DNA of 64,000 nt from Crambe crambe (Eukaryota; Porifera; Demospongiae; Poecilosclerida; Crambeidae): NCBI GenBank assembly GCA_963924555.1, contig OZ004581.1, positions 6,363,338 through 6,427,337 on the forward strand. The letters are read 5' to 3'. The notes below the pieces were generated by a model, which was given only the letters and a program-made list of their open reading frames with translations, had not been told where the DNA came from and ran no database searches. Both the position numbers and the translations under genes were made by a program. Position 1 is the first letter of the stretch. Each line of letters starts with the position of its first letter. Of the stretch, positions 1-62,609 are shown piece after piece.

Positions 1-771
1 AGTCCACACCTTGTTGGTAACATTACCATTTCGCTCCATTCCACCAATCAGCACCAGCTGGGAGTGGTAGGTGGTGAGTGCATAATATTTGGTGGGTGTC
101 TCAAAAATATTCCAAGACTTGAAATCAGTAGAAACAAACAACTTATAAGGATCTTCTGATAATGTACCACCTCCTCCCACGTAAACCTTGCCTTGCAGTG
201 ATACACATTGGGCATTACATATACCCTCTGGAAGTTCACAGCATTCCTCCCAGTGAAGTTCTGCTAGAGGGTGGAAGATATCAACCTGCAAATAGGAGTA
301 AGCTCAATAATTATTGTGTGTGAAGTGTCCATATTAATTGCAAGCGCATGATAGCAACTGGTAGCCGACGAGAATTAACTGCTAGCTAGTCTATCTGTAA
401 CTATAGTGCATTGAATGGTGTCATGCAGACAGTAGGTTAGGCACTTATACTACTCTTTGCACTTGCATAGGCAGCATAGCTAATGTGTAGGCTTAGATAT
501 GACAGCATAATAGCTAATAGGAGTAGCTAGCTACTGTGAATAATGAAGATTAGAGAATCTGGGATTCTTGTTAATTTCCACATTTTTCATGTATAACACA
601 TCAACTTGATGATCTAGCAGCATATCCAACCTTCCTCTGTAGCAGCAGAAAGAGCTTTTAGTCTAGATTATAGTTCTCAATGTACTCAACTATACCAAAA
701 CTACTGATCTTGACCATGACAGTTAACTTACAGATACAATAAGAATTTACCTTGTCCTCCTGCTCTCCCAT
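1..771 (-). CDS. Kelch-repeat gene, 5' part only (paralogue of the 39-47 kb gene)
   Basis: Minus-strand exons at 771-751 (ATG, seven codons, then a GTAAAT donor) and from 285 to the window edge, after a TTTGCAG acceptor. Translation gives MGEQEDK followed by VDIFHPLAELHWEECCELPE and Kelch-like glycine motifs (YVGGGG, LVLIGGM). The gene at 39301 has the same short first exon (MGEKEDK), the same intron phase and nearly the same second exon, so both copies support this model. The intron is about 465 bases here against 1500 bases there. The rest of the protein lies left of the window, so whether it carries Roc-COR and death domains cannot be seen. Kelch blades are protein-binding propellers; the function here is unknown. 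Confidence 0.8.
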
Positions 772-18178: not shown

Positions 18179-19590
18179 CCGGTCCAGTTTCGCTGTCAAA
18201 TTCTAAGCAGATCCGTTTTTGGCAGGGGAAAAAAGTGGACCCGGTCCAGTTTCGCTGTCAAAATCCAGGCAAGTCCATTTTTGGCAGGGGAAAAAAGTGG
18301 ACCCGGTCCAGTTTCGCTGTCAAAATCCAGGCAAGTCCATTTTTGGCAGGGGAAAAAAGTGGACCCGGTCCAGTTTCGCTGTCAAAATCCAGGCAGGTCC
18401 ATTTTTGGCAGGGGAAATAAGTGGACCCGGTCCAGTTTCCTGCCGAAATCCAGGCAGGTCCATTTTTTGCAGGGGAAAAAAGTGGACCCGGTCCAGTTTC
18501 GCTGCCGAAATCCAGGCAGGTCCATTTTTGGCAGGGGAAAAAAGTGGACCCGGTCCAGTTTCGCTGTCAAAATCCAGGCAGGTCCATTTTTGGCAGGGGA
18601 AAAAAGTGGACCCGGTCCAGTTTCCTGCCGAAATCCAGGCCGGTCCAATTTTGGCAGGGGAAAAAAGTGGACCCGGTCCATTTTTGGCAAGGGAAAAAAG
18701 TGGACCCGGTCCATTTTTGGCAAGGGAAAAAAGTGGACCCGGTCCAGTTTCGCTGTCAAAATCCAGGCAGGTCCATTTTTGGCAGGGGAAAAAAGTGGAC
18801 TCGGTCCAGTTTCCTGCCGAAATCCAGGCAGGTCCATTTTTGGCAGGGGAAAAAAGTGGACTCGGTCCAGTTTCGCTGTCAAAATCCAGGCAGGTCCATT
18901 TTTGGCAGGGGAAAAAAGTGGACTCGGTCCAGTTTCCTGCCGAAATCCAGGCAGGTCCATTTTTGGCAGGGGAAAAAAGTGGACTCGGTCCAGTTTCCTG
19001 CCGAAATCCAGGCAGGTCCATTTTTGGCAGGGGAAAAAAGTGGACCCGGTCCAGTTTCGCTGTCAAAATCCAGGCAGGTCCATTTTTGGCAGGGGAAAAA
19101 AGTGGACCCGGTCCAGTTTCCTGCCGAAATCCAGGCTGGTCCAATTTTGGCAGGGGAAAAAAGTGGACCCGGTCCAGTTTCCTGCCGAAATCCAGGCAGG
19201 TCCATTTTTGGCAGGGGAAAAAAGTGGACCCGGTCCAGTTTCCTGCCGAAATCCAGGCAGGTCCAATTTTGGCAGGGGAAAAAAGTGGACCCGGTCCAGT
19301 TTCCTGCCGAAATCCAGGCAGGTCCATTTTTGGCAGGGGAAAAAAGTGGACCCGGTCCAGTTTCGCTGTCAAAATCCAGGCAGGTCCATTTTTGGCAGGG
19401 GAAAAAAGTGGACCCGGTCCAGTTTCCTGCTGAAATCCAGGCAGGTCCATTTTTGGCAGGGGAAAAAAGTGGACCCTGTTCCAGTTTCGCTGTCGAAATC
19501 CAAGCAGGTCCATTTTTGGCAGGGGAAAACAGTGGACCTGGTCCAGTTTTGCTGCTGAAATTTAGGCAGGTCCAGTGGACCTGGCTTTGA
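18179..19590. repeat. 62-base satellite array, ~22 copies
   Basis: The unit reads GGTCCAGTTTCGCTGTCAAA, then ATCCAGGCAGGTCCATTTTT, then GGCAGGGGAAAAAAGTGGACCC. Variants alternate between CGCTGTCAAAA (62 bases) and CCTGCCGAAA (61 bases). Each unit holds GGTCCA/TGGACC palindromic steps. Degenerate units also lie at 15500-15739, left of the nested element, so both belong to one original array. Several reading frames on both strands are free of stops over hundreds of codons. That is a property of the repeat, not evidence of a protein. Confidence 0.9.
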
Positions 19591-27744: not shown

Positions 27745-30605
27745 CAGGGGGGTAGGAGCAGGGGGGTCTGGGGGAGCTCTGGCCCCCCCCCCCCCCACTT
27801 TTTGTCTCTTATGCTACTGACAGTAGTATAAGAACTTGTGGTGGTGTCATTGTGGTTACCACAATAACACCACAACCAGGAGCTAACAGGTTTATGCATG
27901 TCCATTCCTGCTTAGAATACTGAAGCTGTTGATTTTGCAAGCTGATGCAAGTTCAGACCTGCTATCTAGCAAGACTATAGTAATTATAACTAGTGCAGCT
28001 GTGCTAAAGAGTTAGCTACTCAGTAATGGCATCTATGTCTTCAGACTCCGACTCTTCTATAATGACACCTCATCAGCCTAGGCACTTTAAATTTCCACAA
28101 AGGGAATTTGGAGACACTGTCATTGTAAAGAGAAGTTTCCAACCATCATGGTTCGATAGATGGGCATGGCTACACTATGATGAAGGGAGAGACTTAGCAT
28201 TTTGTTTTCTCTGTTATGCAAGCAGCCAAAGAGAAAAAATTACAGTGGGCATTTAATGCTGATGATGCATTCATTTCTCGAGGATTTTCAAATTGGAAAA
28301 AAGCAGTGGCCAAATTTGAAGGACATGAAGGAAGCAAGTGTCACAAAGAATCAGTGCTCAAAATTGTTACAGTGCCATCTACAATGGGTAATGTCGCTGC
28401 ATCTCTCTCAAAACAATGTGAAAAAGAAAAAATTGAAAATCGACACTGTTTTCTGAAAATAGTATCTACTGTGAAGTTATTAGCTCGCCAGGGTCTAGCC
28501 CTTAGGGGTCTACATGGTGATGAAACTAACTCTAACTTCATTCAATTCTTAAAGGCAAGGGGGGAAGATGACTCACGAATCAGGCCCTGGTTGGCTAAGA
28601 AGAGTAACAAATACACATCACCTGAGATCCAGAATGAGATTTTAAAAGTAATGTCATTAAATATTCTTCGTCAGAAAGTAGAATTCCTTCATTCCACTGC
28701 CTTCTGTACTCTTATGATAGATGAGACTACGGATTCATCTAACAAGGAACAAGCTGTCATTTGCATTCGATGGGTTAATAAAGATTTTGAAGCTAATGAA
28801 GAATTTCTCGGTCTTCATGAAGTGGAGTCTACTAATGCTACATCACTCATGGCTATGATACGTGACGTAATGATACGACTAAATCTCTCATTTTCCAAGT
28901 TACGTGGCCAATGCTATGACGGTGCAAGCTCGATGTCTGGGATCAGGACGGGAGTAGCTACTCAGATACAAAAAGAAGAACCCCGTGCAGTGTATACACA
29001 TTGCTATGGACATTCTCTCAACCTGGCATGCAGTGACACCATCAAAAGATGTAAAGTGATGAATGATGCTCTAGATGTTACACAGGAAATCTGTAAACTT
29101 GTGAAAAAATCTCCACACAGAGATGCTCTATTACATCGGATCAAGGAACAGCTTTCAGATAATTCACCTGGAATACGTATTTTGTGCCCCACAAGATGGA
29201 CCATCAGAGCCAAAGTTTTGGGTAGCATTTTGGAAAATTATCATGCCTTGCAGATGCTTTGGGATGAATCTTTGGATCACACCAAAGATCAGGAGATGAA
29301 GTGTAGAATTCGTGGTGTGGCTTCTTACATGAAAACATTTGATTTCTTGTTTGGTGTTATGTTAGGAGAACTCCTCCTCCGCCATTCCGACAACCTTAGC
29401 ATGACACTTCAGTCAAGAAAGAAGTCTGCTGCAGAAGCACAGCAAGTTGTATCAATGACTGTCAAAACACTTGAAACTCTGAGGACTGAAGAGAACTTCG
29501 GATATTTTTGGATGAAGGCCACAAAAACAGCTGATAATCTTAGTGTAAGTGAGCCCAAATTACCAAGGAAGAGAAAAATACCACAAAGGTTTGAGACAAG
29601 TAATGCAAGTGCTGAATTTCACGCAACTGTGGAGCAACACTATCGACAGATGTACTATGAAGCACTGGATCTCATTGTCACTACTATTCGAGAAAGGTTT
29701 GATCAGCCTGGTTATCAGGTGTATTCAAAGTTAGAAGATCTATTACTGAAGTGTGTGGCTAGAAGAAGCTATGAAGAAGAGTTTGAGTTTGTAACATGTT
29801 TCTATGGAGATGACTTCAACCCTGGGCAATTAAAGCTTCACTTAGAAGTGCTGAAAGTTAATTTTCCCAGTGATGATTCTGAAGAGTCCACTCTTAAATC
29901 AGTGCTCACTTATTTTAAGTCACTTTCACCCTCACAGCAAACACTAATATCAGAGGTATGCAAAGTTGCACAACTCATCATAGTGATGCCAGCTTCTAAT
30001 GCTGTAAGCGAAAGTTGCTTCAGTATATTACGGAATATTAAGGACTATTTGCGAACAACAATGACACAAACTCGTTTAAACAGTTTAATGACACTTCACA
30101 TTGAAAAGGATATGACAGATAAACTATCCCGGATTGAAGTAGCAAATGAATTTGTTCAAGGGTCGAATCATCGTAGCAATTATTTTGGCAAATTCATTCC
30201 CAGTGACATTAATAACTTCTAATTAGCATCATCATTGTACCTTAACCTTGAAAAAATTACTAACTTTTGCAAAAACTACTAATTTTTGTTGTTGGCTTTT
30301 TGTTTTTTGTTTTGTTTTTTGTTTAGTTGTTTTTTTTTGTTGTTGTTTTTGTTGTTGTTTTTTGGGGGGGATTGTTGTAAGGAAAACAGTATCAAAAAAT
30401 CTGGGGGAGGAGGGATAGTATGCTGTGTGCACAGACGTAGGAGAGGGTGATCAGCAAAGTTATAGAATAGAGCCTTGTAACCAGGCACCGAAAAGGGCTA
30501 GGTCAATAGAAACACAGAGATGCTCTTATTTGCCTTATGGCCACACAGTATTCTGGGGCTGGTGTGGTAAGCCCCCCCACATCAAAACTGCTTCCTACAC
30601 CCCTG
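27745..30605 (+). mobile_element. hAT-type DNA transposon with 5-base duplication
   Basis: The ends CAGGGGGGTAGGAGC and CTTCCTACACCCCTG are inverted repeats; the flanks carry CTACA (27740-27744 and 30606-30610). The element is 2861 bases and encodes one transposase (28026-30222). G/C-rich subterminal stretches (GGGGGG...CCCCCC) lie inside the left end. Most hAT elements make 8-base duplications, so the 5-base flank is notable. The ends match those of short elements at 17003, 34327, 34870 and 37979. Confidence 0.85.
28026..30222 (+). pseudogene. hAT transposase with TTF-type zinc finger, one frameshift
   Basis: The N-terminal frame (28026-28256) shows the TTF-type zinc finger start (FQPSWFDRWAWLHYDEGRD, FCFLC). 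The frame moves by +1 around 28216-28235, and 28216-30222 then continues NADDAFISRGFSNWKKA and KCHKES. The catalytic region has LMIDETTDSSNKEQ, then CYDGASSMSG, HCYGHSLNLAC and CPTRW. The C-terminal hAT dimerisation region has NAVSESCFSILRNIKDYLR. About 730 residues in all, typical of ZMYM/TTF-type hAT transposases. Apart from the single shift, which could be a base-calling error or a real lesion, the frame is intact over 668 codons, suggesting recent activity. Confidence 0.85.
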
Positions 30606-33339: not shown

Positions 33340-33998
33340 TTAGCTTGTCATGTGACCTTGAATTGAGCTGTATGAATTAATATCATACAGATCGAGCCAC
33401 ACTGAGTCATAATTTCTCTCACCTGTGAATCTGGCGATCTCTTCAAACAGTCCTGGATCCATCCTCTGCACACTCTTAGCTATAATCCTCCAGCTTGGCC
33501 TTCCATACTTTTGATAATCATAATTCAACTTTAGCCACTGCCCCAACGTTATATTAAGGCAGACATCAACGTCTCCTGGGTTATTCTTCTTGATGGCCTC
33601 AACAGTGTGTTGCTGAATGCGTAGTTTAGTGGCAAGTACTTCCCACTTGGCAGACAAAGTTTCCACAGTATCAAACACATCACCTAATCCCTGAAATGAA
33701 GAATAATCACACAGTTCAGCAGACAATCGATCAAACCTAACACCCTCACCTAGTGTATTGTCATCAATCGTTGATAAAGTTGAAGATGGTAAAGTTTTAG
33801 GGTTAACTTCAGTAAATTCCTATTATGAAATATCATCTGTACACTCTTCACTAGGCTCAACTGAGTGCAATTAGTAGCCATTCAGTCTTATATGGAATAA
33901 GGGAATTTACTCACATTCTTTGGTTCGGCAGCTGACGGGGAGGTCTTTGACTGATCATCCACAGATTGAGATGGAGACTTTGCAGTGTTAGTTGACAT
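33340..33998 (-). CDS. Single death-domain protein, two exons
   Basis: Exons 33998-33915 (ATG, 28 codons, GTGAGT donor) and 33819-33340 (after a TAATAG acceptor), joined in phase, give 187 residues. The N-terminal ~70 residues are Ser/Thr/Pro-rich and likely disordered. A death domain occupies about 84-172 (LGDVFDTVETLSAKWEVLAT, then QHTVEAIKKNN, then LGQWLKLNYD and PSWRIIAKSVQ), with the usual six-helix spacing and Trp in the helix 5 region. Death domains form homotypic complexes in apoptosis and innate signalling. With no other domain, this could be an adaptor. Alternatively these exons may be the 3' end of the ankyrin-ZU5 gene just upstream on the same strand, because ankyrin-ZU5-DD is a natural combination. 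Confidence 0.75.
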
Positions 33999-35108: not shown

Positions 35109-37007
35109 AGCTTTCTGAGTCATCCACTTCTTCATCTTCATCTTCTTTTCTTTTCCTCTTGCCAATCTTTAACAATCAAAAGTGTCTCAGTGATATTTCT
35201 CCCACCTGGTCTCCAGGTTTGAATATTCCCTTGGCCCCCTGGATCGTTCTGAAGATGTAAACAGGTGGATCAGACTCCCTGTACACAGGGGTGGAGCTAG
35301 CTGAGAGGAACACCATGTCTTCACAATCCTCTTCACTCTTCAAGCAAGCATAGTGATGCATCCTGACTGTGACATCCTTTAAAAATGTCATTCTCCTGCT
35401 GTGTGTGATCAAGTAAGTTGGACTTGCTGACTTGTAGCCGTTTGGTAACTCAAATGGTCCACTGAAGCAAGGATGAATGAACACTTCTTCTTCAATGTTT
35501 AGCGAATTTTCAGGAATGAAGACAGAGATTCCCTTGTCCACTAGCCCACATATCAATGCTTCTCTTGGTGTAATGTGTTCTGCAATAGGCATTTGGTAAA
35601 AGTAAACTCTTGGGTAGTAGGAGTCAATCCCTAAATCAAAATAGGTTGCTAGCTATATTAAAATAATATGAATGATGTGTAGATTAGCTACGTATTTACA
35701 AATATCACTGTTTTTTTCATCCAATAAAGTTTGTAACTATAATGGGAAAAAAATTCACTATGTAGCTACGTACGTGAGAAATAAAATGGCATTCAGTATT
35801 ACTCATATAATCAATTGCAGCTCTACATACCAAATTTTGAAAAAATGAAAAAGTGAGGACTTCATGAGAACAGACATCGAATATGGTATCTCCTTCATAG
35901 TTAGTCAAATGTACATTAGCTCCATATGCTACGAGAAGATCACATATTTCCAGATCTCCAGCTTGTGCTGCATAAACCAGTCATTGTTATCTTGCATATC
36001 AATTTGAGCACCTTTTTCAAGAAGTAGAGAAACAGTATCTGGTCTTCAATTAAAGCTAGCATACATTAGGGCAGTTTCCCTCTGTTATCATGCTGGTCAA
36101 CTTTGATGACGTCCTAACTCTAACAGTAAGGTTCCTTCACTGTTACATTTGCTAACTTTGGCTCTATATTAAAACAGAACCTTAACTGATTCAGTGTGCT
36201 GACCTTTAACTGCTAAATATAGAGGATATAGTTCATTCTTGCTCTGCATATCAACTTGAGCACCTTTGTCTAGTAGCAGTTTGATCATCTTAGTGTGAAG
36301 CAGACCATCCTTTTCCCCCCTGCATGTTGACTTGAGCTCCTTTTTCTATAGCAGTTTGACCACTTCAGTGTGACCATTCTGACATGCTAACATTAAAGCA
36401 GACCATCCATCTTTTTCCTGCATATCAACTTGAGCATCTTTCTCTAGTAACAGTTTGACTACTTCAGCGTGCTCATTCTGACTTGCTAATATTAAAGGAG
36501 ATAATCCATTATTGTTCTGCATATTGACTTGAGCACCTTTCTCTAGTAGCAGTTTGACCACTTCATTCTGACTTGCTAACATTAAAACAGACAATCCATT
36601 ATTGCTCTGCATATTGACTTGAGCACCTTTCTCTAGAAGCAGTTCGACCACTTCAATGTGAAAAACACGACTTGCTAACGCTAAAGCAGACCATCCATAA
36701 TTGTCCTGTATATCTACTTGAGCACCTTTCTCTAGTAGCAGTTTGACCACATCAGTGCGACCATTCTGACTAGCTATCATTAAAACAGACCATCCATCAT
36801 TTTCCTGCACATCAACCTGAGCACCTTTCTCTACTAGCAGTTTAACCACTTCAATGTGAAAAAAATGACTTGCTAACGCTAAAGCAGACCATCCATAATT
36901 GTCCTGTATATCTACTTGAGCATCTTTCTTTAGTAGCAGTTTGACCACATCAGTGCGACCATTCTGACTAGCTATTATTAAAGCAGACCTTCCAGAGCCG
37001 ACCTGCT

Positions 37008-39300: not shown

Positions 39301-42300
39301 ATGGGAGAGAAAGAGGACAAGGTAACTTCTTATTAATAAACAGACTGCTAGCAAAGAAAAAAACTCAGTGAGTGAACTGTCAAAATCAATAGATCTGGTG
39401 TCATAGTGAAAACTGTCCCCAATATTCACACTAGTAAATATAATAATTATCTGGGGGACACTATTCACTAGTGAACTAGCTAGTGAATAGTGTCCCCCGA
39501 ACTAGTGCATAGTCAGTGAATAGTGTCCCCCCCCCCCCCCTCTCAGTGAATAGTATCCCCCCATGAAAGAGACAAATTCACTTGACTGAATTGTCGGTAG
39601 CTAATTTTTATGAGAACTGATCAGCTATTACATACGTATGTACCATTGGCTGGTAAGTAGAAACATTATAACTAGAGTTCATAGAGTTCAATGCCCCGCT
39701 GTAATAAGCCTGTAAAGTGTCTGGTTGAAGCATAATTACCAGCACAACCTGTAATTTTAACATGTGATTTTAAATCTTAAAAAATAGAACCTATGATACC
39801 CATAGGCATGTGCATGTACGTTGTCTAGATAACTTTCTGTGTGCATTTTTGTATCACCCTGCTGAAGGCTAGAGTATTCTGGCTTAAACATCTTATTTAG
39901 TGATTCGTTTCATAAAGCTATTCTTGCTTCACGAAAACATTGTAAGTATGAAGTATGCTGGCAATAAGTGTCGAATAAGGACGTATTTTAGTAGTTATTA
40001 GCTACGAGTTTTCAAAATTTCCTGCCACAGACATAGTCCCAAACGATTGCTTAACCCCTTGAAAGGGGCAATAAAATTACTTCTGCTCTTACGCTTCATT
40101 CTTCCCATCTCATACTGACTTGAGCCAAGAATTAAATGCCATTGCTCAGCAAACGATGATAGTTTAGTGAGGAAGTGTTACTTTTGATTGTTCTATCTGG
40201 AGTCGTGTGCACAAGTACTGATCTGACCACCTTTACCTAAAAATTACTCCTGTTTACTAGCTACTTGGTCAGTTGGCTCTTGTCATACTACTAGAGCCAA
40301 AAATTGCAACCATCTTCTCCATTGCTCAGCAAATACTTACATAGTTTATTTTAATAGTCAGGCCAGCAGAACAGAACACACATTTTTTCCCTAATACATC
40401 ATGTACTAATGTGTAATATTGGCAACCCTTACCCAATACATGCATGCCATTCCTGATTGAGCTGTTGCTGATACCTCAAGATAGTTATAGAGCTTAGAAA
40501 GGCTTCGAATAATTATAGCTAAGTAGTCAGATATGAAAGCTCGTGCATGGAGAATCCAACAGCAGAGAGTCATGTAGAAAAATCACAGGTGGGCTTTCCA
40601 GCATAACTTATAAACTATACACTACTGTGCTACCTTCGGTACCTCCTTGCTCTTCCCTATAGGCTTTAGTTAGTTGGCATTGTTAAAGAGTAGCTACACT
40701 GCACCAATTAAGGCTTACACCACTGGTGCTTTCATTAATTTATAGATAGCAGTTAGCTAGTTCTCATCAGCCACCAGTTGCTATCATGCATTTGCAATTA
40801 CTTCCACATAATAATTTGCAGGTTGATATCTTCCACCCTCTAGCAGAACTTCACTGGGAGGAATGCTGTGAACTTCCAGAGAGTATGTATCATTCCCAGT
40901 GTGTATCACTGCATGGCAAGATTTATGTGGGAGGAGGTTACACATCATCAGGTGATCCTTACAAGCTTTTTATTTCTTCTGATCTGAAGTCTTGGAATAT
41001 TTTCAATACACCCACCAAATACTACGCACTCACCACCTACCACTCCCAGCTGGTGCTGATTGGTGGAATGGAGCGAAATGAGTATTGTACCAACAAGGTG
41101 TGGACTACTGGAGCAGAACGAATTGAATGGCTGTCATCTCTGCCTCCAATGAGAATATCACGCCGCTCTTCATCAGCCATCAATACTCAAAGTAAACAGA
41201 ATCAAGCTGAGTGTATAATTGTTACAGGTGGTTTGAAAACGCCAGGAGTTCGACTGAATACAGTTGAGGTGTTTGTGCAGGGGGAGTGGTCAATTGTGCA
41301 ACCTCTACCTCTTCAATGCTTCTGTATAAAATGCACTATCCATGATGAGATCTTGTACTTGATGGGAAGTTATCAACAAGACAACTCTGTATTATACTGC
41401 GAATTAGACTCTCTCCTGTCATCTAATGATACTCTGTGGAAAACTTTTCGAGTCCCTCTCTACTACTCCAGTTGTGTGACATTTCATCGTCACCTTGTGT
41501 CTGTAGGAGGATCCTCCACCTCCCCCTTATCTAAGATCTATGCCTACTCCCCTCTCACTCGATCCTGGCTGCATGTGGGGGACTTGCCTTTTGAACTTGA
41601 ATCCACTACCTCCACTGTCATCTCAACAGGAGAACTGGTGGTGATAGGTGGAAGGACTACTAATACTTCAAACAGTCGCAAGGTATACAAGGCATCATTA
41701 AAAGGTAAGAATGTGCATCCTCATGACAATCCTCCCATCAAAGAACTGGACTTTTGGTTAGTTGATACCTTCATTCCATATTCCATGGTAGCTCATAAAA
41801 GGTTATGGAGCAATGATTTGGTGGGATTTTTTTTGTACTGTACAACAAAAACAATAAATTATGTTGAGCAATTAAAGTTGGCATGTCACTAAGTGCATGG
41901 CAGTATCCTGATTGATGTTATATGAGCCAGTTTGTTTTTATAGATAGTTGAGCACAAAAATAAGCCAATTCACAAAAAATTCTGTTTCTATATCCCCACA
42001 GTGTCCCCATTCAACCTTGAGAGTCGATTCAGCATGCTTGCACTCTCCAAATTGGAGTATGCAGGAGTCCAGATCATAACATCACTCAAGGCAGTCCTCA
42101 ATCAACTAACAGCACACATTGGAGTTACATACCCTGAAGTTAGTGTTAAGCAGGCTATTGTCGAGTGGGAGTCTGGAAGGAGCCGTTTCTCTCCAACCTG
42201 GAAGTCACTATTCTCTGTACTAAAGAACTTGAATCAAGAGGAACTGAGTCAGCAGATTGAAGACTACCTCTATGGTGAGTCAGAGTTTATTTATTCTAAA

Positions 42301-45300
42301 TAAAAAGTAGGGATGGCTGTGTGTGGTTCAAAAAAGTTCAGCAACAAGGGAGTGAACTTCAGTCAAGTAACCTCTTACCCATCACCAATATTACCAAACT
42401 AAGAGCTAACTATTCTACTTCACTATACTAATACGTAGTTAGATACTGAGCCCTAGGGATCTACAGTATTTAGAAACCTGAGGGCCCTGGGGCGGCTGTA
42501 GCAGCCTGAACGCAGCAAGGCCGCTACTAAGGGCCCAAAGGTTTGTAGATCCCGTTAGTCGAGGTGTCTAACTAAACAGTGAAGTGATCTGTTAAATAGC
42601 TAGCATAGCAACAAATGGCTACGTACATTTAAAGAGCTAGCCAGAGACGTTTATGAACAAACGGCAGCTTACTCAGTCAGTTATCCATTACTGTAAATCG
42701 GGAAATTTTCATTGTTAAAAATAATTCACGGTTGGCTCAAACAACGAAAATTAAACACGTGAAATATTTTCTACAACGGATTATTAAAATATTGAAAATA
42801 TACGGTAGGAAGCACATTGCGTACTAGCTACGTAGCTAGCTTGCAGTCTCTCCTCAAGTATTTGAAGCAGAAGGATGGTCTTCCGGCTATTGCTTGAGCG
42901 AATTGTGAAGTGGAGGCAGAGTTAGTTAGTTCGAGATTTTCTTTCGACCACATGTCCAACAATCATACCTGATTTCTTCACTGCCACCGCGTACCTGTCC
43001 TTTTCATTCGTTGGCTCCCTCACACTCTAGCGTTTCACCTAGATTGGCATCCCACATGTCACGGTACCACGAACACACAGTAAGCGATCTGGAACTCTAC
43101 GCTAGCACTTACCGCCATTTTCTCCATTTTAGTAGTAGTGAAATTTTCATTGTTGAAAATAATTCGCAGATGATTCAAAAAACGAATAATAAACACATCG
43201 AAAAAATAAAACGCGAAGATATTTTACACAAAAATTTCCTGATTTACGGTAAATAAATACGTAGCTAGCCTAGGCAACAAATAGCTATGTCTAAGAGCTA
43301 GCTAGAGATGAACAAAGGGGTGTGGCCTCGCTTGCATCTGCGCAGAGTACCAGTGCAGAATGCCAGCTTGCAGTAACCAGCTACGTAGAAGTGACATCAT
43401 TCATTGGATTTGACCAATCAAGTAGTTAGATTACAGGTTAGCTAAATTGCTGGATTAGGTCAAGCTATCTAAAGGAATGTAGAGAGGGAAATGAAAGTCA
43501 TATTTCCTCCAAATGGCCCCTGTGGCTCAATTTTGACTCATGTTCCCTAAATTATTTTTCTTTTCCAGGTAAACCAGTCAACCTATATCTTGCTGCCTAC
43601 CACCAGATCCTTAAAACACGTGGTTCTTTGGATATGATCTTTCTTAAAATGGTCTTTGTTGGTTCTCCTCGTTTGGGAAAGACAAGTGCTCGTCGCCGTC
43701 TCACAGGAGAGATTGTTGATATCAGCTCAGCTGGAGAACCAGAGCAGCCAAGCACAGGGACAGTTGAGTCGGGACGAACAGTTGTCATCAGAAACCTTAC
43801 CAGCACCACAGCTGTGGTGACTCCAACAGAATGGTTTGCCATCAATAACCTCACAGAAGAGGCAAGCATGCTTCTAGAGTTCATATATGGTCACTCTCGT
43901 CAGCTAAATGAAGATGATGAAGTATCAAGTGTCAATAATGCTTCCATTCCAAAGACTAAGACAGATTTAGACCAAAATGTGAATTCCTCCTCTTCTGCTC
44001 CATTCTCAAATAGTGAGTTTGACTCACCTAATTCAGCCCTCATTTCTTCATCACCAAAACAGAGTGATATTTTTAAATCTCGAGGTATGGGTATGGAAAT
44101 TGCCAACTTGTTTCGTAAGGTTATGGATTCAAAATATTGGAAGGATATCAAGCATTTATTCAAATATACAGCTCTCATAAGAATGGAAGACACGGGAGGC
44201 CAGCCAGAATTCATGGACATGCTCCCGGCTCTGACTATTGGTCCTGCCCTCTACCTGTTGTTCTGTAAGCTCATCGATGAACTTCAGAGTCGCTACACTG
44301 TATCCTACCTCAGTCCCTCAGAAGGACAGTCTACCACTCCAGTAGAGTCCACCTACACTGTTGAAGAAGTCCTACTCACAGCTCTGGCTGGTGTTGCTTG
44401 TCTGAGTTCTCACTCATCATCTGAAGTCAGCAATGATGAGGATTCCATATCCCCACTTACTAAGCAGCACGAGCTTCTATCATCTTCTAAATCAATTGCT
44501 TATATAGTGGGGACTCATAAAGACCTTGTATCTGACCAGCAGGTAGCTGAATTTGATGAGAAGCTGCAACGCATTGTACGGTCCACAGATTTCTTCCACA
44601 AAGATCTTGTTCAGTTTTCATCTGAAAATAGAATGGTGCTCCCCATCGACAATATGACAGGAGGAATGGAAGAAATTAAGAAAATACAAAAGTTTCTGGC
44701 AGAAAGTATTCAACAACACTTCAAGAAGCTGTCTATTCCAGCTGCATGGCTAGTACTGAGCATCTGGCTTCGGAAAAGAGCTGAGAGAATAATCAGCCTG
44801 CAAGATTGCCTTCAACTAGCTGAACAACTTGGTATGACATCAGAAGAATTGAAACTGGCCTTATGGTTTCTCCATCACTATGCTGGGGTCCTAATGTACT
44901 TCCCAGACTTGCCTGAACTCAAAGACACTGTCATCTGTGACATACAGATAGTGTATGACAGTGTTACTAATCTGATTGTCAACACGTTTAGGTTTGGTCC
45001 AGTCAGCAAAGCAAATGCTGAGAAGTTTCGAGAGACAGGACAATTCTCATTGGAGGATATCAGAGGGGCAACTGCCAGTATCTCAGGAGACTACATTCCA
45101 TTGGACCAACTTGTGAAGCTACTGGAATACCTCAATATCATAGCTCCTCTGGTACACCCTGATCCAGAATGTTCTGATAAAAATCCAAAAATTGTCTACT
45201 TCATGCCCTGTGTTCTTCATAATGCTCCAAAGGAAGAGCTTCAGACTTGCCAAAAGAATGACTCCCATTCAGTCCTCCCAGCTTCTCTAATGATTCGATA

Positions 45301-47044
45301 CGAGTGTGGCTTTGTACCCCTTGGTCTCTTTCCTGCCACCATTGCTAACCTCGTTGGAAATGATTCATTCACATTGATCGTCAAAGGAATTAAGAAGAAT
45401 CAAGTCCAGTTTCGATTTGGAGCTGATCATGACAAAGTCACCTTCATATCTCGACCACACTACTATGAGATCCACATCACACGACAAGCAGCTGCTGTCA
45501 CCAAAACACATGAAGTGTGTGGTGCTGTTCGAGAAATCATCGAGTCAACGATCAAGACAGTCACCTCTCGCATGAACTATGCCTTCACTGCCAGCTATCA
45601 GCTTGCATTTGAATGTCCCTCTCACCCTGGAAGGGACCACCTGTGTGTGGTGAACAGCAGAGAGACCTCTCCCCACATGATGGACTGTCTATTCAATATC
45701 AAAGATCCACAGCCATTGGTAATGCAGAGACAGCACATGGTGTGGTTTGGGAAGGTAAGGTTATATTTGATTTGAAACCCTAAAGATTTCCTTAACACAA
45801 GCTGCAATTTTTCTTCTTCATGTAGCCCATGAATGGTGATGGAGATGATATCTCTGGACCTTACCCAACATATCGGTCATGTGAGTTGCTATCTACATAA
45901 TATTATCAATCAGGGTTTCATTTAGGGAGCATCCCCCTTCCCATAAACTATTTAATCCTGAGGCTCTATTGATTGGGGAACCCCCCACATTATTGTTTAT
46001 TTAGATATTAACTGAGTCTCACTCTATAGTTAAATGTTTTTTCACTTCTGTAGTCATCATATTTGTACTTCATGTTATTGTATTGCAGTAGTCAGTACTA
46101 ATCCACTTTGGGATAAAGATATAACAATGAACTATCTGCAACTAATCAAGTACTTGGACCCTGAAACTGGTGAGTGCAGAGAAATCAGAATCCTGGACGA
46201 CTTGGCTCCCTACTGGAAGAAGATAGCTGAGCTTCTTGGCATCCGACCTTCAACCATTAAATCTATTGCAAAACAAGGTTCAGACATTGATTGCTTACGA
46301 GATGTGATTGGAGAATGGCTGGCCAATGCTCCCCAAATGCCCCACTGCAAACACTACTCCGAGAAATGGAGAGGCTTACACAACTTGCTGAAGGATGGCC
46401 GAATGGGAAAGTTGGCAGCAGATATGGAAGCTGCTTTTGATGCTGAGAAAAGTTCAGTCCATGGAAATTATGAGGAAGGTAAATTATCAACAGATTACAG
46501 TAATATTTAGTTAAGCTACTTGAAACATGCTCAAGCTATATATTAATGATGTTGCAGATTCAGGGACTTTAGCATCAAGCCATGCCTCTCTTCCAACTTC
46601 ACACTCGCATATTCCATCAGGTAGCTATGTAGCATCATTCCCTCCCACTTGAAATTGAAATTCATAACAAAGATCCTCCTAAATCTAGAGATTGTAATCT
46701 TATACTACTTAAATGCAGCTGTGGTGACGCTTCAACCAGGTCTCCAAGATAACGTTAACCCCTCCCACCTCCTGTATATGAGACCACACCCACTGGTACT
46801 GTGCAAAGAATTGTGGAGCATTAGTGAAGAGTGGAAAGAGGTTGGCTTGTTCCTGAACCTGGAGGAGAAAAAACTTAAAGAAGTGGAGAAGCATGGAACT
46901 ACTTCTCAGTCATGCATGAAGGAGATGTTAAAGGTGTGGTTGGCCAGAGAACAGCCTCCTCCCACCTGGGTAGCCATTATTGAGGTGCTGGATTTCCTCG
47001 AACATGAAGAATTGGCTTTGACTCTCAGACGAAAAGCATCCTAA
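39301..47044 (+). CDS. Kelch-DD-Roc-COR-DD-DD protein (ROCO-family death-domain protein)
   Basis: Eight exons (39301-39321, 40822-41704, 42002-42274, 43569-45754, 45826-45880, 46089-46478, 46558-46620, 46719-47044) splice in phase to 1398 residues. Residues ~8-300 form Kelch repeats (IYVGGGY, LVLIGGM, CIIVTGG, LVSVGGS, LVVIGGR). Residues ~303-392 look like a weak death-type domain (SPTWKSLFSVLKNLNQEELS). Roc GTPase: P-loop GSPRLGKTS (~424-432), switch DTGGQPEF (~600), G4 THKD (~708). COR region ~760-1080. Two death domains follow (~1145-1255, IRILDDLAPYWKKIAELLGI; ~1300-1398, WSISEEWKEVGLFLNLEEKK). ROCO proteins couple GTP binding to signalling, and death domains recruit partners in cell-death or immune pathways. 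The long Ser-rich insert between P-loop and switch is unusual. The seven-codon first exon is supported by the inverted paralogue; an in-frame ATG at 40786 is the alternative start. Confidence 0.85.
39322..40821. other. Intron 1 of the Kelch-ROCO gene, with CCCCC palindromes
   Basis: About 1.5 kb without supported exons. At 39452-39560 GGGGGACACTATTCACTAG is followed by its inverted copy and two further direct copies of AGTGAATAGTGTCCCCC, with a C run. The corresponding intron of the left-edge paralogue (286-750) is a third as long. Confidence 0.6.
42417..42586. mobile_element. Palindromic MITE in intron 3 of the Kelch-ROCO gene
   Basis: Outer arms CTTCACT...TAGTTAGA / TCTAACTAAACAGTGAAG and inner arms GGGATCTACAG...AACCTGAGGGCCCT / AGGGCCCAAAGGTTTGTAGATCCC form a long hairpin. 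Confidence 0.7.
42691..43249. mobile_element. TA-flanked MITE, CTGTAAATCGGGAAATTTT ends, in intron 3
   Basis: Left CTGTAAATCGGGAAATTTT pairs with right AAATTTCCTGATTTACGG; TA flanks. Internal copies of TTTTCATTGTT(A/G)AAAATAATTC lie near both ends in the same orientation. The 81-codon frame at 43011-43256 lies within it and is not a gene. Confidence 0.65.
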
Positions 47045-47759: not shown

Positions 47760-49042
<1,283 letters not shown>

Positions 49043-58622: not shown

Positions 58623-60701
58623 CTATATTATACTCATTTTATTAAGGTTGGAGACAAGTTTAGAAGTGGGTAATGGTACTTGCTGCCCATCTTTCAACTC
58701 AAATACAAAATGTTGAAAGAAAATAAAAAATGGAGCTAAAGATTTTGGGTACACTATGTCGTAAACAAAGTATACAACAATAAGGTCCAATAAACTGTCT
58801 TTGAATGACTTGGATTCTATTATTGTACTGCTTTCACCGGCAATAAAATATTGTGCGTTGTCAGTACCAATTTTTCCAAGCACAATGATATATGGTGTCA
58901 TCTGAGCTATATCAGCGACTTTTCTGTTTACATCAACGTCACAGTCCTATAAAATTTGATAGGTGAATTATCATAACAGAACCAGAGTGAATTATTTGGG
59001 TACAGATCTGGTGTCAGTGGGATGCAAAATTTCCACATTGGCATTATGGTTATGGAATTTGCAATTCGAACAGCAAGAGCTCTCATGCAGTAAGGCTTAA
59101 GATTCACCTATTCCAAATGGAGCCCAATGTACTGCTACTTTTCTACACATAATTATGTATAGCTACATAGCCTCACCTCAAAAGTGAAAATAAGAGAGTA
59201 TCCTTGTGGAATTCCCCTAGTATACAGTAGCTTCATTAGTATGGTAATACATGTGCCACATTTGAAGTCTGTAAAAGCAATCATAATAATTCAAGACAAA
59301 AATGTAACAGAAATGCAATTTCTTACCAGAATCATCAACGATCTCATCACTATTAACATCAAGCTCGTGAAGTAGATCTTTAATTTGTCTTCTAGTGGCA
59401 GCTTCTACTTTTGCAAAGGCAAATATTTTCCCTTTCCAAGAGGACCAGGAATCCATCAAGGTTGTTACTCTGTCATTTATACCAGTAATAGTTTTAAACT
59501 CTCGGTAAAGCTACAAGATGAGGACATAATCAATTGATACATGAGAAAATTCACAAACTTACAGCTTTTGTAGTACTTAAAGGTGGAAAAGCTTCAATGA
59601 TTTCAATTATATATGGATGCCTTTCATCAATCCATTTACGCCGACCAGCAAAAGTTATTTCCATTAAGTCTTTAATCAGTGCATGATTTTTCTTCCTCTT
59701 ATCACACTCTTGATTTAGTTCAGTTACCTTCAGCGTGTATTCTTCTTCTGGGAGACCGTTACTTGATTCCATCCTCAATCGTTTCTTTGGGGGTTCACTC
59801 TTACTTGATTTGGAAGATGACTCGCTCTCATGACCTCCTCTTCTGAAGTTCTTAAAACTGTTCCTTAGCCCCATTTTCCATGATCCCTGTATTGTTATTG
59901 TAGTTATATATCATTATTATTCCAAAGGTTTACTTACCCAACCACTTCCAAGCGGATCTGCCAGTTTATTGTATTTCTTCACTAGCTTCTCACAGACAGT
60001 TTCATACTGGAGATGATTCGGTGTTGGTGTATGCTGCAATACAAGGGTACGCAGAACTCGTACTATCTCAGAGCGTGCTTTTGAAGAAACGACACCAGAG
60101 TCAATTGCATCACGAACAGCAGAGCTGAATGAGACAGGTTCAGGTATAACAAACTTTTGAAGCCATTGGTAATTTGGAGAGGATTGAGGTGGGGGTTCTT
60201 TAGTCTATAAGAAATCACAAACTGAGTTAGAATATATAATCATTTGTAGCAATAAAACCCTTGCCTTAACAGCCAAATACAAGTATAGTCCATATACTCT
60301 ATGGCTATAGGTATAATAGAATATGCTTAACCTTTGGTGTTTTTTCCTGAGGTTGATGCTGCTGAACTTCTTTATCTTTTGGAGCAATCTAATGAAATGA
60401 TAAAGTGAGTGGCTAACTTGATGCATTCTTAAGTCTACAGACTAGAAATTATAGAACCACTTACTTCTTTTTTAAGAGTCCTCATCAGTTCTTTTAATTT
60501 GATCCGAATACCCATTACTGGAACAAGTTCTTTAAGGTCCTCTTCCTCCAAGGCCAAGAAAGTTGACCCTGAAATCTCATTTTCTTCAAATTTGTGGCAC
60601 ACACTCTCTGAAAATTCAAGGTCTTGTAGGTAGTCAGAGAATTGGCTAACATTCAACTGTAGCACAGAAATGGCAGGCATCAGATCCAGAGTGTTCGCCA
60701 T
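58623..60701 (-). CDS. SAM-domain protein of the SAMD3-like multicopy type
   Basis: Minus-strand exons 60701-60465, 60388-60332, 60204-59938, 59886-59563, 59510-59327 and, after an exon I could not resolve near 59107-58980, 58946-58623 (stop). The first exon encodes a SAM domain (FSDYLQDLEFSESVCHKFEE, then LALEEEDLKELVPVMGIRIK). Exons 3-4 carry ARSEIVRVLRTLVLQHT, YETVCEKLVKKYNKLADPLG and SWKMGLRNSFKNFRR, typical of the repeated SAMD3-like genes of sponges and fish, then KRMRMESS-type basic and IKDLMEITFAGRRKWIDERH. The last exon has GTDNAQYFIAGES and VYDIVYP. SAM domains mediate oligomerisation; the rest has no known activity. Shares a 121-base promoter with the C2H2 gene, and the pair may be transposon-derived. 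Confidence 0.7.
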
Positions 60702-60822
60702 ATGCTTTGTGCAGCTGCTCGATTGTGCGCTTACGGCTGCTCGAACGACTGCGCATGCGCTTACACGCGAGCGCGGGCTATTCGCGCGGATAGGTACGTG
60801 AAGCCAGGTGAAGCCTACTAAA
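60702..60822. promoter_or_regulatory. Bidirectional GC-rich promoter with NRF1-like site
   Basis: 121 bases separate the two divergent start codons. The stretch is far more GC- and CpG-rich than its surroundings and contains TGCGCATGCGC (60750-60760), a perfect palindromic NRF1-type site, plus several CGCG steps. No TATA box was seen, which fits a CpG-type divergent promoter. Confidence 0.55.
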
Positions 60823-62609
60823 ATGGAAGGTCCATATAGACTGCTCTGCACCGTTTGCGAGTCCTATCGTACTAATAAACTTCGTGACTTACTCCAGCAT
60901 ATACGTATCCTTCATGCTCATCAGCCAGGCCTTATTATTAGGTGTGGAATTGGAGGGTGCCACAAGACATATTCGAACTTTGGTACCTTTCAAAATCATA
61001 TCTCAGCTTACCATAGTACCGAGCAGAATCCAACGAATATAGCTCAGACTTTTGATGACTTGGATGATGAGGATATATCTGATGAATTGCATCATGAACT
61101 GGACCCTGATGAACCAGAAGAACAGTGTGTACATGTGCCACTACCTGATCTCCAAAAATCAGCCGCACTTTTGTTACTAAAATTGAAGGAGCACCACAAA
61201 CTTACCCAAAAAGCTGTGCAGGTAAACAACAGTGTGCACTCGATTATGATTTATTGTATATTATTTATTTATAGGCAACTATTGAAGGCATCACATTGCT
61301 GTGGCAAAGTTATCTCTCCAACATTCATTCTTGTGTGTCTAATGTGCTGATAGAAGATGGAGTTAACAAAGAATCACTTTCCAAACTGGATAAGATATTC
61401 CAAAGTACTGGTACTTTTGGTAATCCATTTGCTGGGCTTTTAACTCAGCATCAACAAACGAAGTACTATAAAGAAGAGTTTGGACTAATAGTAAGTTAAT
61501 TTCATGGGGTGGAGTCTCTGTGATGAAGGCATAATAATTATCAAAGGAACCAGTTCGGGTAACACTCGGAAAAAAGCGTGTGTGGAAGGGGTTAGGACAG
61601 AAACGGAAATGCTTGGAAGTGTGTGACACCTTTATGTACATCCCCCTCCTGAAAACTATTCAAGTCTTATTGAACAACAAGGCCATTAGAGATCAGGTAT
61701 TTTTTTATACTTTAATCATATTATAATTATTATAGCTATGCCTTCAGATTGAAAATGGCCATTTATCTTCAAGTGGCTACATGGAAGACTTTTGTGATGG
61801 GACAGTGTTTAAGTCACACCCTCTATTCTCTGTCCATGGCCACGGTCTCCAACTCTTTTTATACTACGACGATGTAGAGGTTTGCAACCCACTAGGATCC
61901 AAAAGAAAAATCCATAAACTAGGTACGTTAGTAACATATACACTGTTAAGATAGGGGTACTGAAATGTGTTACCCCATAGAGATATAGGTAACCCATTTC
62001 CATGACTTGACTTAGGTTTCCATGGAAACAGTTCTGACATCATGACTTGTACTCATGATGATTACAAATTACAAAAGATTAAAGGTATCCATGGGAACCA
62101 GCTGTGGATCATGGAGCACCCTAGGGTATAATATATGTATACTCCTTGGCTATAATACCACATTCAATAGGTTTCTTCTATTTCACCCTTGGAAACATAA
62201 TTCCGAAGAATCGATCAAAGATTTCTTCGATACAACTTTTAGCCATCGCAAAGAAATCAGTGATTGATGAATATGGAATTGATGCTGTGCTGAAATCAAT
62301 TGTGGAGGACCTCAAGAAGTTGGTATGTTTTATGTTGCTAATATTGCTGTGTACATTATAGCTATTTCAAGCTAAGGGTACTGGACTATTAAAACCCGAG
62401 TCATTTTTTATTAATTATAGGAAGATGGTTTTACCTTTCATATCGAAGATCATGTGTTGGGGTTCACTCACAGACGCGGGAGTTTGGAAAGAATAATCGC
62501 AGTAGGTCAGAATCAGCTTTTTCAAAATAAGAAAATCACTTGGACTGACTATATAGCTACTATGACACAATTCAAATACTGGATGGAATGTATGATGTGT
62601 GCATGTTGA
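60823..62609 (+). CDS. C2H2 zinc-finger protein of a multicopy, probably transposon-derived family
   Basis: Six exons (60823-61221, 61275-61490, 61547-61696, 61748-61922, 62171-62322, 62421-62609) splice in phase to 426 residues. The N-terminus has two C2H2-like fingers (CTVCESYRTN...HIRILH; CGIGGCHKTYSNFG...HISAYH), then an acidic linker. Later exons carry FVYI-type motifs seen as CDTFMYIPLLKTIQVLL, then HGHGLQLFLYYDDVEVCNPL, GSKRKIHKLG, FYFTLGNIIPKNRSKISSIQ and GIDAVLKSIVEDLKKL. That order is characteristic of uncharacterised repeated genes in sponges, cnidarians and fish. The last exon departs from the family after EDGFTFHIEDHVLGF, so the C-terminus is truncated or frameshifted. DNA binding is likely; catalysis is unknown. 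Confidence 0.7.

Follow-up and report, generated by a model that had tools for sequence, protein, structure and literature searches.

What might a sponge protein that joins a Kelch propeller to a GTPase-like Roc-COR region and death domains recognize, and does it stand alone? The gene encoding it lies on the forward strand at positions 39301..47044 of a 64,000-nucleotide stretch of the Crambe crambe genome (GenBank assembly GCA_963924555.1, contig OZ004581.1, positions 6,363,338 to 6,427,337). This whole stretch is referred to below as the window, and coordinates are those of the window unless a contig is named. Exon 2 of the gene encodes the Kelch propeller, exon 4 encodes Roc-COR, exons 6 and 8 encode candidate death domains, and exon 3 encodes a domain between Kelch and Roc. 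A sequence-only reading had taken this for a single unusual architecture, but about 50 loci of the genome proved to have it in whole or in part. Comparison of the copies establishes, at the sequence level, the linkage of the Kelch and Roc-COR parts, the conservation of the GTPase motifs, diversification centred on one face of the propeller, and exchange of the Kelch exon. We consider it rather probable that these genes represent a family of NLR-like receptors in which a diversifying Kelch propeller is the sensor, Roc-COR the switch and the death folds the output.

Exons 2, 3, 4 and 8 served as queries against the genome (143 Mb in 119 contigs); only the best candidates were scored, and all family counts are lower bounds. 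After merging, at least 50 Kelch loci were found at 42% identity or more. Exon 3 was present within 3 kb downstream in 46 of these 50 loci, Roc-COR within 9 kb downstream in 43, and both of them downstream on the same strand in 41. None of 13 more distant Kelch exons used as controls (of 82 rows below 42% identity) was linked to exon 3 or Roc-COR. On contig C6, 24 loci form a head-to-tail main array, all on one strand, that takes up about 0.28 Mb (between 8.38 and 8.69 Mb), with a spacing of 8.7-18 kb. The splice sites flanking Kelch and exon 3 were kept in all 19 copies compared. Both this and the order of Kelch, exon 3 and Roc-COR kept at the 41 loci argue against a model that fuses two neighbours, a Kelch gene and a Roc-COR-death gene; we find such a fusion hardly credible, even though 18 of the 61 Roc-COR loci have no such Kelch exon upstream. 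Six further Roc-COR loci, about 45% identical, occur at C18:0.50-0.90 Mb, and this Kelch exon is not upstream of them. An unrelated Kelch array lies on contig C13 (2.19-2.45 Mb). A search for the acceptor ahead of Roc at a fixed offset returned 0 of 18 with a wrong offset (AG is nearby in 17 of the 18 rows), and its result was not used.

A second family member, on the minus strand (C1:6356547-6363622), reaches into the window with the 5' part of its Kelch exon, which overlaps window positions 1-285, and its exon 3, Roc-COR and last death-domain exon continue beyond the window start. At locus L007, a frame upstream of the Roc-COR exon (positions 1-942; C1:1426059 onward) resembles part of NLRP3 (E 0.0035), and Pfam matches nothing in it at E<=0.01; the frame could belong to a neighbour or to an NLR-Roc-COR fusion.

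The diversification of the propeller was analyzed in 19 distinct C6 Kelch exons (20 fetched, one duplicate), 15 of which belong to the main array. The ratio of nonsynonymous to synonymous substitution rates (dN/dS) of the Kelch exon was 1.24 (bootstrap 0.92-1.63). Exon 3 of the same 19 copies gave 0.49, and the first part of Roc, compared in 18 of them, 0.47. The ligand pocket of Keap1 is made up of two residues per blade in an RRSG-like turn and of the loop after each GG. Positions homologous to this pocket, hereafter the face, were assigned in two registers, with the Keap1 pocket residues taken from the docking tables of PMC12029559. The hand register comprises 48 positions and was set with the alignment already seen. 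The automatic register, made by alignment to a Keap1-derived repeat, comprises 40 positions and is free of the bias of the hand register but imperfect, since it puts the blade 3 turn pair on other residues and fails to pick up the one in blade 5. Face dN/dS was 3.45 in the hand register versus 0.65 in the rest of the exon, and 3.37 versus 0.87 in the automatic one, and in either register none of 300 circular shifts reached the observed mean face entropy. Of the 37 columns with an entropy of 1.5 or more, 30 fall within the 48 face positions. In 60 random draws of 14 of the 19 sequences, the ratio of the proportions of nonsynonymous and synonymous differences (pN/pS) of the face remained at 2.40-3.58. 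A tree-free count gave 195 nonsynonymous (N) and 25 synonymous (S) events on the face versus 151 N and 80 S elsewhere (Fisher p 3.9e-9), the excess of N over the neutral ratio on the face having p 1.1e-4. Mean identity was 43% on the face and 91% elsewhere, and the face strings differ among all 19 copies. The controls of this test are internal (exon 3, Roc and the rest of the Kelch exon). Reading frames are open in Kelch and exon 3 of all 19 copies and in the first part of Roc of all 18. Sequence comparison thus demonstrates diversifying selection on the Kelch face of the C6 copies. A diversity-generating retroelement was rejected as the cause of the face variation, because the changes at first and second codon positions span all four bases and not adenine sites alone.

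The Kelch exon also appears to have moved between backbones. The 18 copies with Roc in reach fall into two Roc types of 8 and 10 copies. The proportion of synonymous differences (pS) in Roc is 0.13 and 0.08 within the types and 0.62 between them; in the Kelch exon it is 0.062-0.070 within types and 0.067 between. The intron between Kelch and exon 3 is 98% identical in all copies, exon 3 is intermediate (pS 0.11 and 0.09 within types, 0.15 between), and in the intron after exon 3 identity falls from 92-94% within types to 73% between them. No split by Roc type is seen in the 700 bases upstream of Kelch (0.78, 0.71 and 0.75). The simplest reading of these values is that the Kelch exon was exchanged between two Roc backbones, the exchange boundary lying in exon 3 or close to it. 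Mosaicism inside the Kelch exon is likewise the simplest reading of two further results, namely the poor correlation of pairwise distances among sixths of the exon (-0.10 to 0.47) and the failure of the four-gamete test by 944 of 2,485 informative site pairs; recurrent mutation of the face may add to this mosaic signal.

A propeller face that changes far faster in sister copies than the rest is the manner in which recognition receptors evolve, and the large number of copies, the focus of selection on the ligand face and the transfer of the sensor between backbones are marks of a recognition repertoire. The earlier suggestion that Kelch is the ligand sensor gains strong evolutionary support from the concentration of diversification at the homologue of the Keap1 pocket in sister copies, and from the subfamily of the window gene, in which these positions also vary most. 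For the ligand, the switch and the output we infer the following scheme. The protein would be intracellular, and its Kelch propeller would bind a changing ligand through the face that Keap1 uses. Ligand binding would alter the nucleotide state of Roc-COR, after which the clustered death folds could bring in an adaptor. Analogy with NLR receptors makes recognition of microbes or non-self the likely role. In a study of two sponges, each of two tables contains one Kelch-motif gene, be it of this family or another, with a negative change after microbial stimuli (PMC6208332).

The same receptor design could instead serve allorecognition between conspecific individuals, not recognition of microbes, which we consider unlikely. 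Allorecognition systems usually show extreme allelic variation at few loci, whereas here variation is seen between loci. In favour of allorecognition are the differences of the face strings among all copies compared and the work of fungal NLRs with diversifying WD propellers in non-self recognition (PMC4986451). Another alternative, to our minds an improbable one, is that the partners bound by the Kelch face are endogenous and evolve rapidly, and that the proteins regulate cell death or development and are not immune receptors. Kelch propellers are common as substrate adaptors, and the nearest relatives of known structure, after designed Kelch proteins, include human BTB-Kelch propellers like that of Keap1 or KLHL12. 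However, BTB, BACK and F-box are unmatched in the gene model, and a head-to-tail expansion to 24 copies with face-focused diversification is the usual pattern of recognition genes. Reading the family as NLR-like receptors, we suggest only tentatively that an early-branching animal may possess a repertoire of Kelch cassettes, exchanged among at least two Roc-COR backbones, selected on the ligand face and wired to death-fold signalling, as a GTPase-based counterpart of NLR immunity or as a basis of self/non-self recognition. Most of the large variable receptor families described in animals are built with LRR, Ig, SRCR or NACHT parts. The diversification data predict the ligand-contacting residues, and therefore a search for the ligand is practical.

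The eight-exon in-phase model proposed for the window gene is sound: it comprises 1,398 codons and seven GT-AG junctions, with the frame kept throughout. Exon 1 (39301..39321) contributes 7 codons with an ATG start and a GT donor; the paralog L013 retains its ATG, frame and donor, while L014 retains the donor and has a shorter in-frame start. Exon 2 (40822..41704, residues 8-301) encodes the Kelch propeller including the variable face, as indicated by Pfam and the diversification tests; its six blades were read from the repeat register and not from a structure. The presence of Kelch repeats, proposed from the letters alone, is certain on profile evidence, with Kelch_1 and Kelch_6 matched in all 21 exons scanned. 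Exon 3 (42002..42274, residues 302-392) encodes the domain between Kelch and Roc, and exon 4 (43569..45754, residues 393-1121) encodes Roc-COR. Exon 5 (45826..45880) is a short linker, followed by exon 6 (46089..46478), with a weak death domain; exon 7 (46558..46620) is a second linker, followed by exon 8 (46719..47044), with the C-terminal death domain and the stop codon. Both linkers are in frame between GT-AG junctions. Up to E 10, the 1,398-aa model gave no match to kinase, ankyrin, NACHT, NB-ARC or BTB profiles, and LRR, BACK and F-box were not matched in it either.

The assignment of exon 4 to Roc and COR rests on motifs and weak scores. The P-loop GSPRLGKTS (43661..43687) and the switch II DTGGQPEF (44189..44212), from which intact nucleotide binding had been proposed, were read from the sequence and are conserved among the aligned copies. 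In the 16-row Roc-COR alignment, in which the ten rows from C6 are limited to the first part and L007 is cut short at the end, six columns of the P-loop are invariant in all rows, and in switch II the D is invariant and the T and G are near-invariant, with the variants DAGGQPEL in L007 and DTGGHPEL in L025. A G4-like GTHKD motif (44510..44524), also read from the sequence, is kept in all 6 rows that cover it. COR-A was matched in 6 of the 16 members (taken to be the six long ones) with a best E of 8.5e-8, and in the window gene with E 1.1e-6, below the cut-off. A 443-aa version of exon 4, made by removing two poorly conserved stretches and the end, scored 30 bits for COR-A and had no Roc match at E<=0.1. 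A profile search of the PDB with the alignment returned one row only, dihydroxyacetone kinase, at E 0.86.

Of the two or three death domains initially proposed, the one in exon 8 stood, with a Pfam Death score of 27 bits against a cut-off of 22.6. Exon 6 remained below the cut-off at 15.8 bits and is 25% identical to exon 8 over 51 aa. Exon 3 was rejected as a Pfam Death domain, matching in 0 of 22 copies, although its predicted model is death-fold-like. Profile alignment (hhalign) of exon 3 with exon 8 gave a P value of 0.00019 over 40 columns (probability 48%), and with exon 6 a P value of 0.0012 (probability 19%), so that the kinship is suggestive only. Searches of PDB sequences with exons 3, 6 and 8 revealed nothing significant, the FADD death domain surfacing for exon 8 at E 0.24. 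Taken together, the architecture given by the sequence-only reading was partly confirmed and its interpretation partly supported.

Several results weigh against the receptor reading. On the sensor side, 7 of the 37 highly variable columns fall off the defined face, and for the whole Kelch exon of the C6 copies the tree-free N/S comes to a neutral 1.02. Within the subfamily to which the window gene belongs (nine members: the window gene and L011-L018, L010 being excluded for a stop), the 48 face positions have an entropy of 1.54 versus 0.47 elsewhere, reached by none of 300 shifts, but face dN/dS is 0.90, not above 1, versus 0.40 elsewhere, and the whole-exon value is 0.52. Without the two most distant members, face dN/dS is 1.29 versus 0.45. 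When the test was limited to the turn pairs, the observed entropy was reached by 1 of 300 shifts (3 of 300 without these two members). Because of these face ratios and shift tests, diversifying selection, demonstrated for the C6 copies only, is only suggested for the branch of the window gene. As regards the switch, Pfam Roc was not significant (matched at E<=1 in 5 of the 16 pieces, with a best value of 0.0039), the two bit scores seen being 16.4 and 13 versus a cut-off of 27. The COR-A bit scores seen for four pieces were all below the cut-off of 35.3, and AlphaFold2 on the Roc-COR alignment produced an unusable model with a pLDDT of 32. For the copies, the reading is weakest in the output domains: 9 of the 50 Kelch loci have an exon-8-like death-domain exon within 12 kb (best 22 of 142 rows). 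Three of these nine are copies of the main array of 24, each with a stop inside the match; the other six are one further C6 copy without a stop and five loci elsewhere, including the window gene.

These stops, together with those carried by some family members, and the fact that loops are variable in many families, could favour the view that the face loops are simply free of constraint and that the array is decaying, with no receptor role. We regard this as very unlikely. Relaxed constraint brings dN/dS to 1 at most and not to 3.4, the frames of Kelch, exon 3 and the first part of Roc are open in every copy compared, and the rest of the Kelch exon is constrained and its splice sites intact.

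Other features of the window lie on both sides of the gene. A minus-strand frame at 36346-37005 contains ankyrin repeats (Ank E 5.1e-57, seven stretches), and a weak death-domain frame (33340-33819, E 0.0041) lies 2.5 kb beyond it on the same strand; the two may make up one ankyrin-death gene in head-to-head orientation to the Kelch gene. A hAT-type transposase frame occupies 28198-30222 on the plus strand (DUF4371 E 4e-28, Dimer_Tnp_hAT 2e-6). About 86 imperfect copies of the 9-base unit TGAGTCCAG (47769-48537) begin 0.7 kb downstream of the stop codon of the gene, and about 22 copies of a 62-base unit, with long open frames overlapping on both strands, are found at 18179-19574. A weak SAM domain, below the cut-off, is encoded on the minus strand at 60435-60863 (E 0.0017).

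Among known systems, the ROCO proteins LRRK2, DAPK1, MASL1 and GbpC likewise have a central Roc-COR, and DAPK1 has a death domain C-terminal to it. Unlike them, the sponge protein has an N-terminal Kelch propeller, a death-fold-like domain before Roc and, after COR, one clear and one weak death domain; it matches neither kinase nor LRR profiles, and about 50 loci share a diversifying propeller face. The DAPK-like interpretation offered earlier was not upheld, since kinase and ankyrin matches are missing from the model and the nearest evolutionary parallel is with fungal NLRs with diversifying propellers. A 2018 review names Kelch motifs among the domains flanking ROCO (PMC6320773), and the combination of Kelch with Roc-COR is therefore not new. 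The ROCO family, with LRRK2 and DAPK1, would gain an animal setting for a possible defence role. Bacterial AP-GTPase (Roco) conflict proteins also combine an AP-GTPase and COR with a fast-evolving N-terminal repeat sensor (PMC8195603), but they are prokaryotic, with an LRR sensor and varied effector domains. Animal NLRs, including sponge expansions such as the 126 NACHT and LRR genes of Dysidea avara, 25 of them with an N-terminal death domain (PMC12909245), share a repeat sensor, a nucleoside triphosphate (NTP) switch and a death-fold output, whereas NACHT and LRR are unmatched here and the switch is of the GTPase type. Keap1 and other BTB-Kelch adaptors have the Kelch propeller and a ligand pocket at homologous positions; here BTB and BACK are unmatched, and Kelch is joined to Roc-COR and death folds. 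In the titles and abstract openings covered, subscription papers being outside this scope, no animal Kelch-Roc-COR-death family or diversifying Kelch face was found. Fungal NWD/NLR proteins have WD repeats and an NLR nucleotide-binding domain in place of Kelch and Roc-COR and are not known to carry animal death domains. The WD propellers of this family, which includes HET-D and HET-R, are described as positively selected at four interaction-surface positions in every repeat, and the family as undergoing concerted evolution with repeats exchanged between genes (PMC4986451). With a propeller sensor under selection at few positions per repeat and exchange between genes, the fungal NWD family appears to be the closest precedent in evolutionary style for the sponge Kelch-Roc-COR genes.

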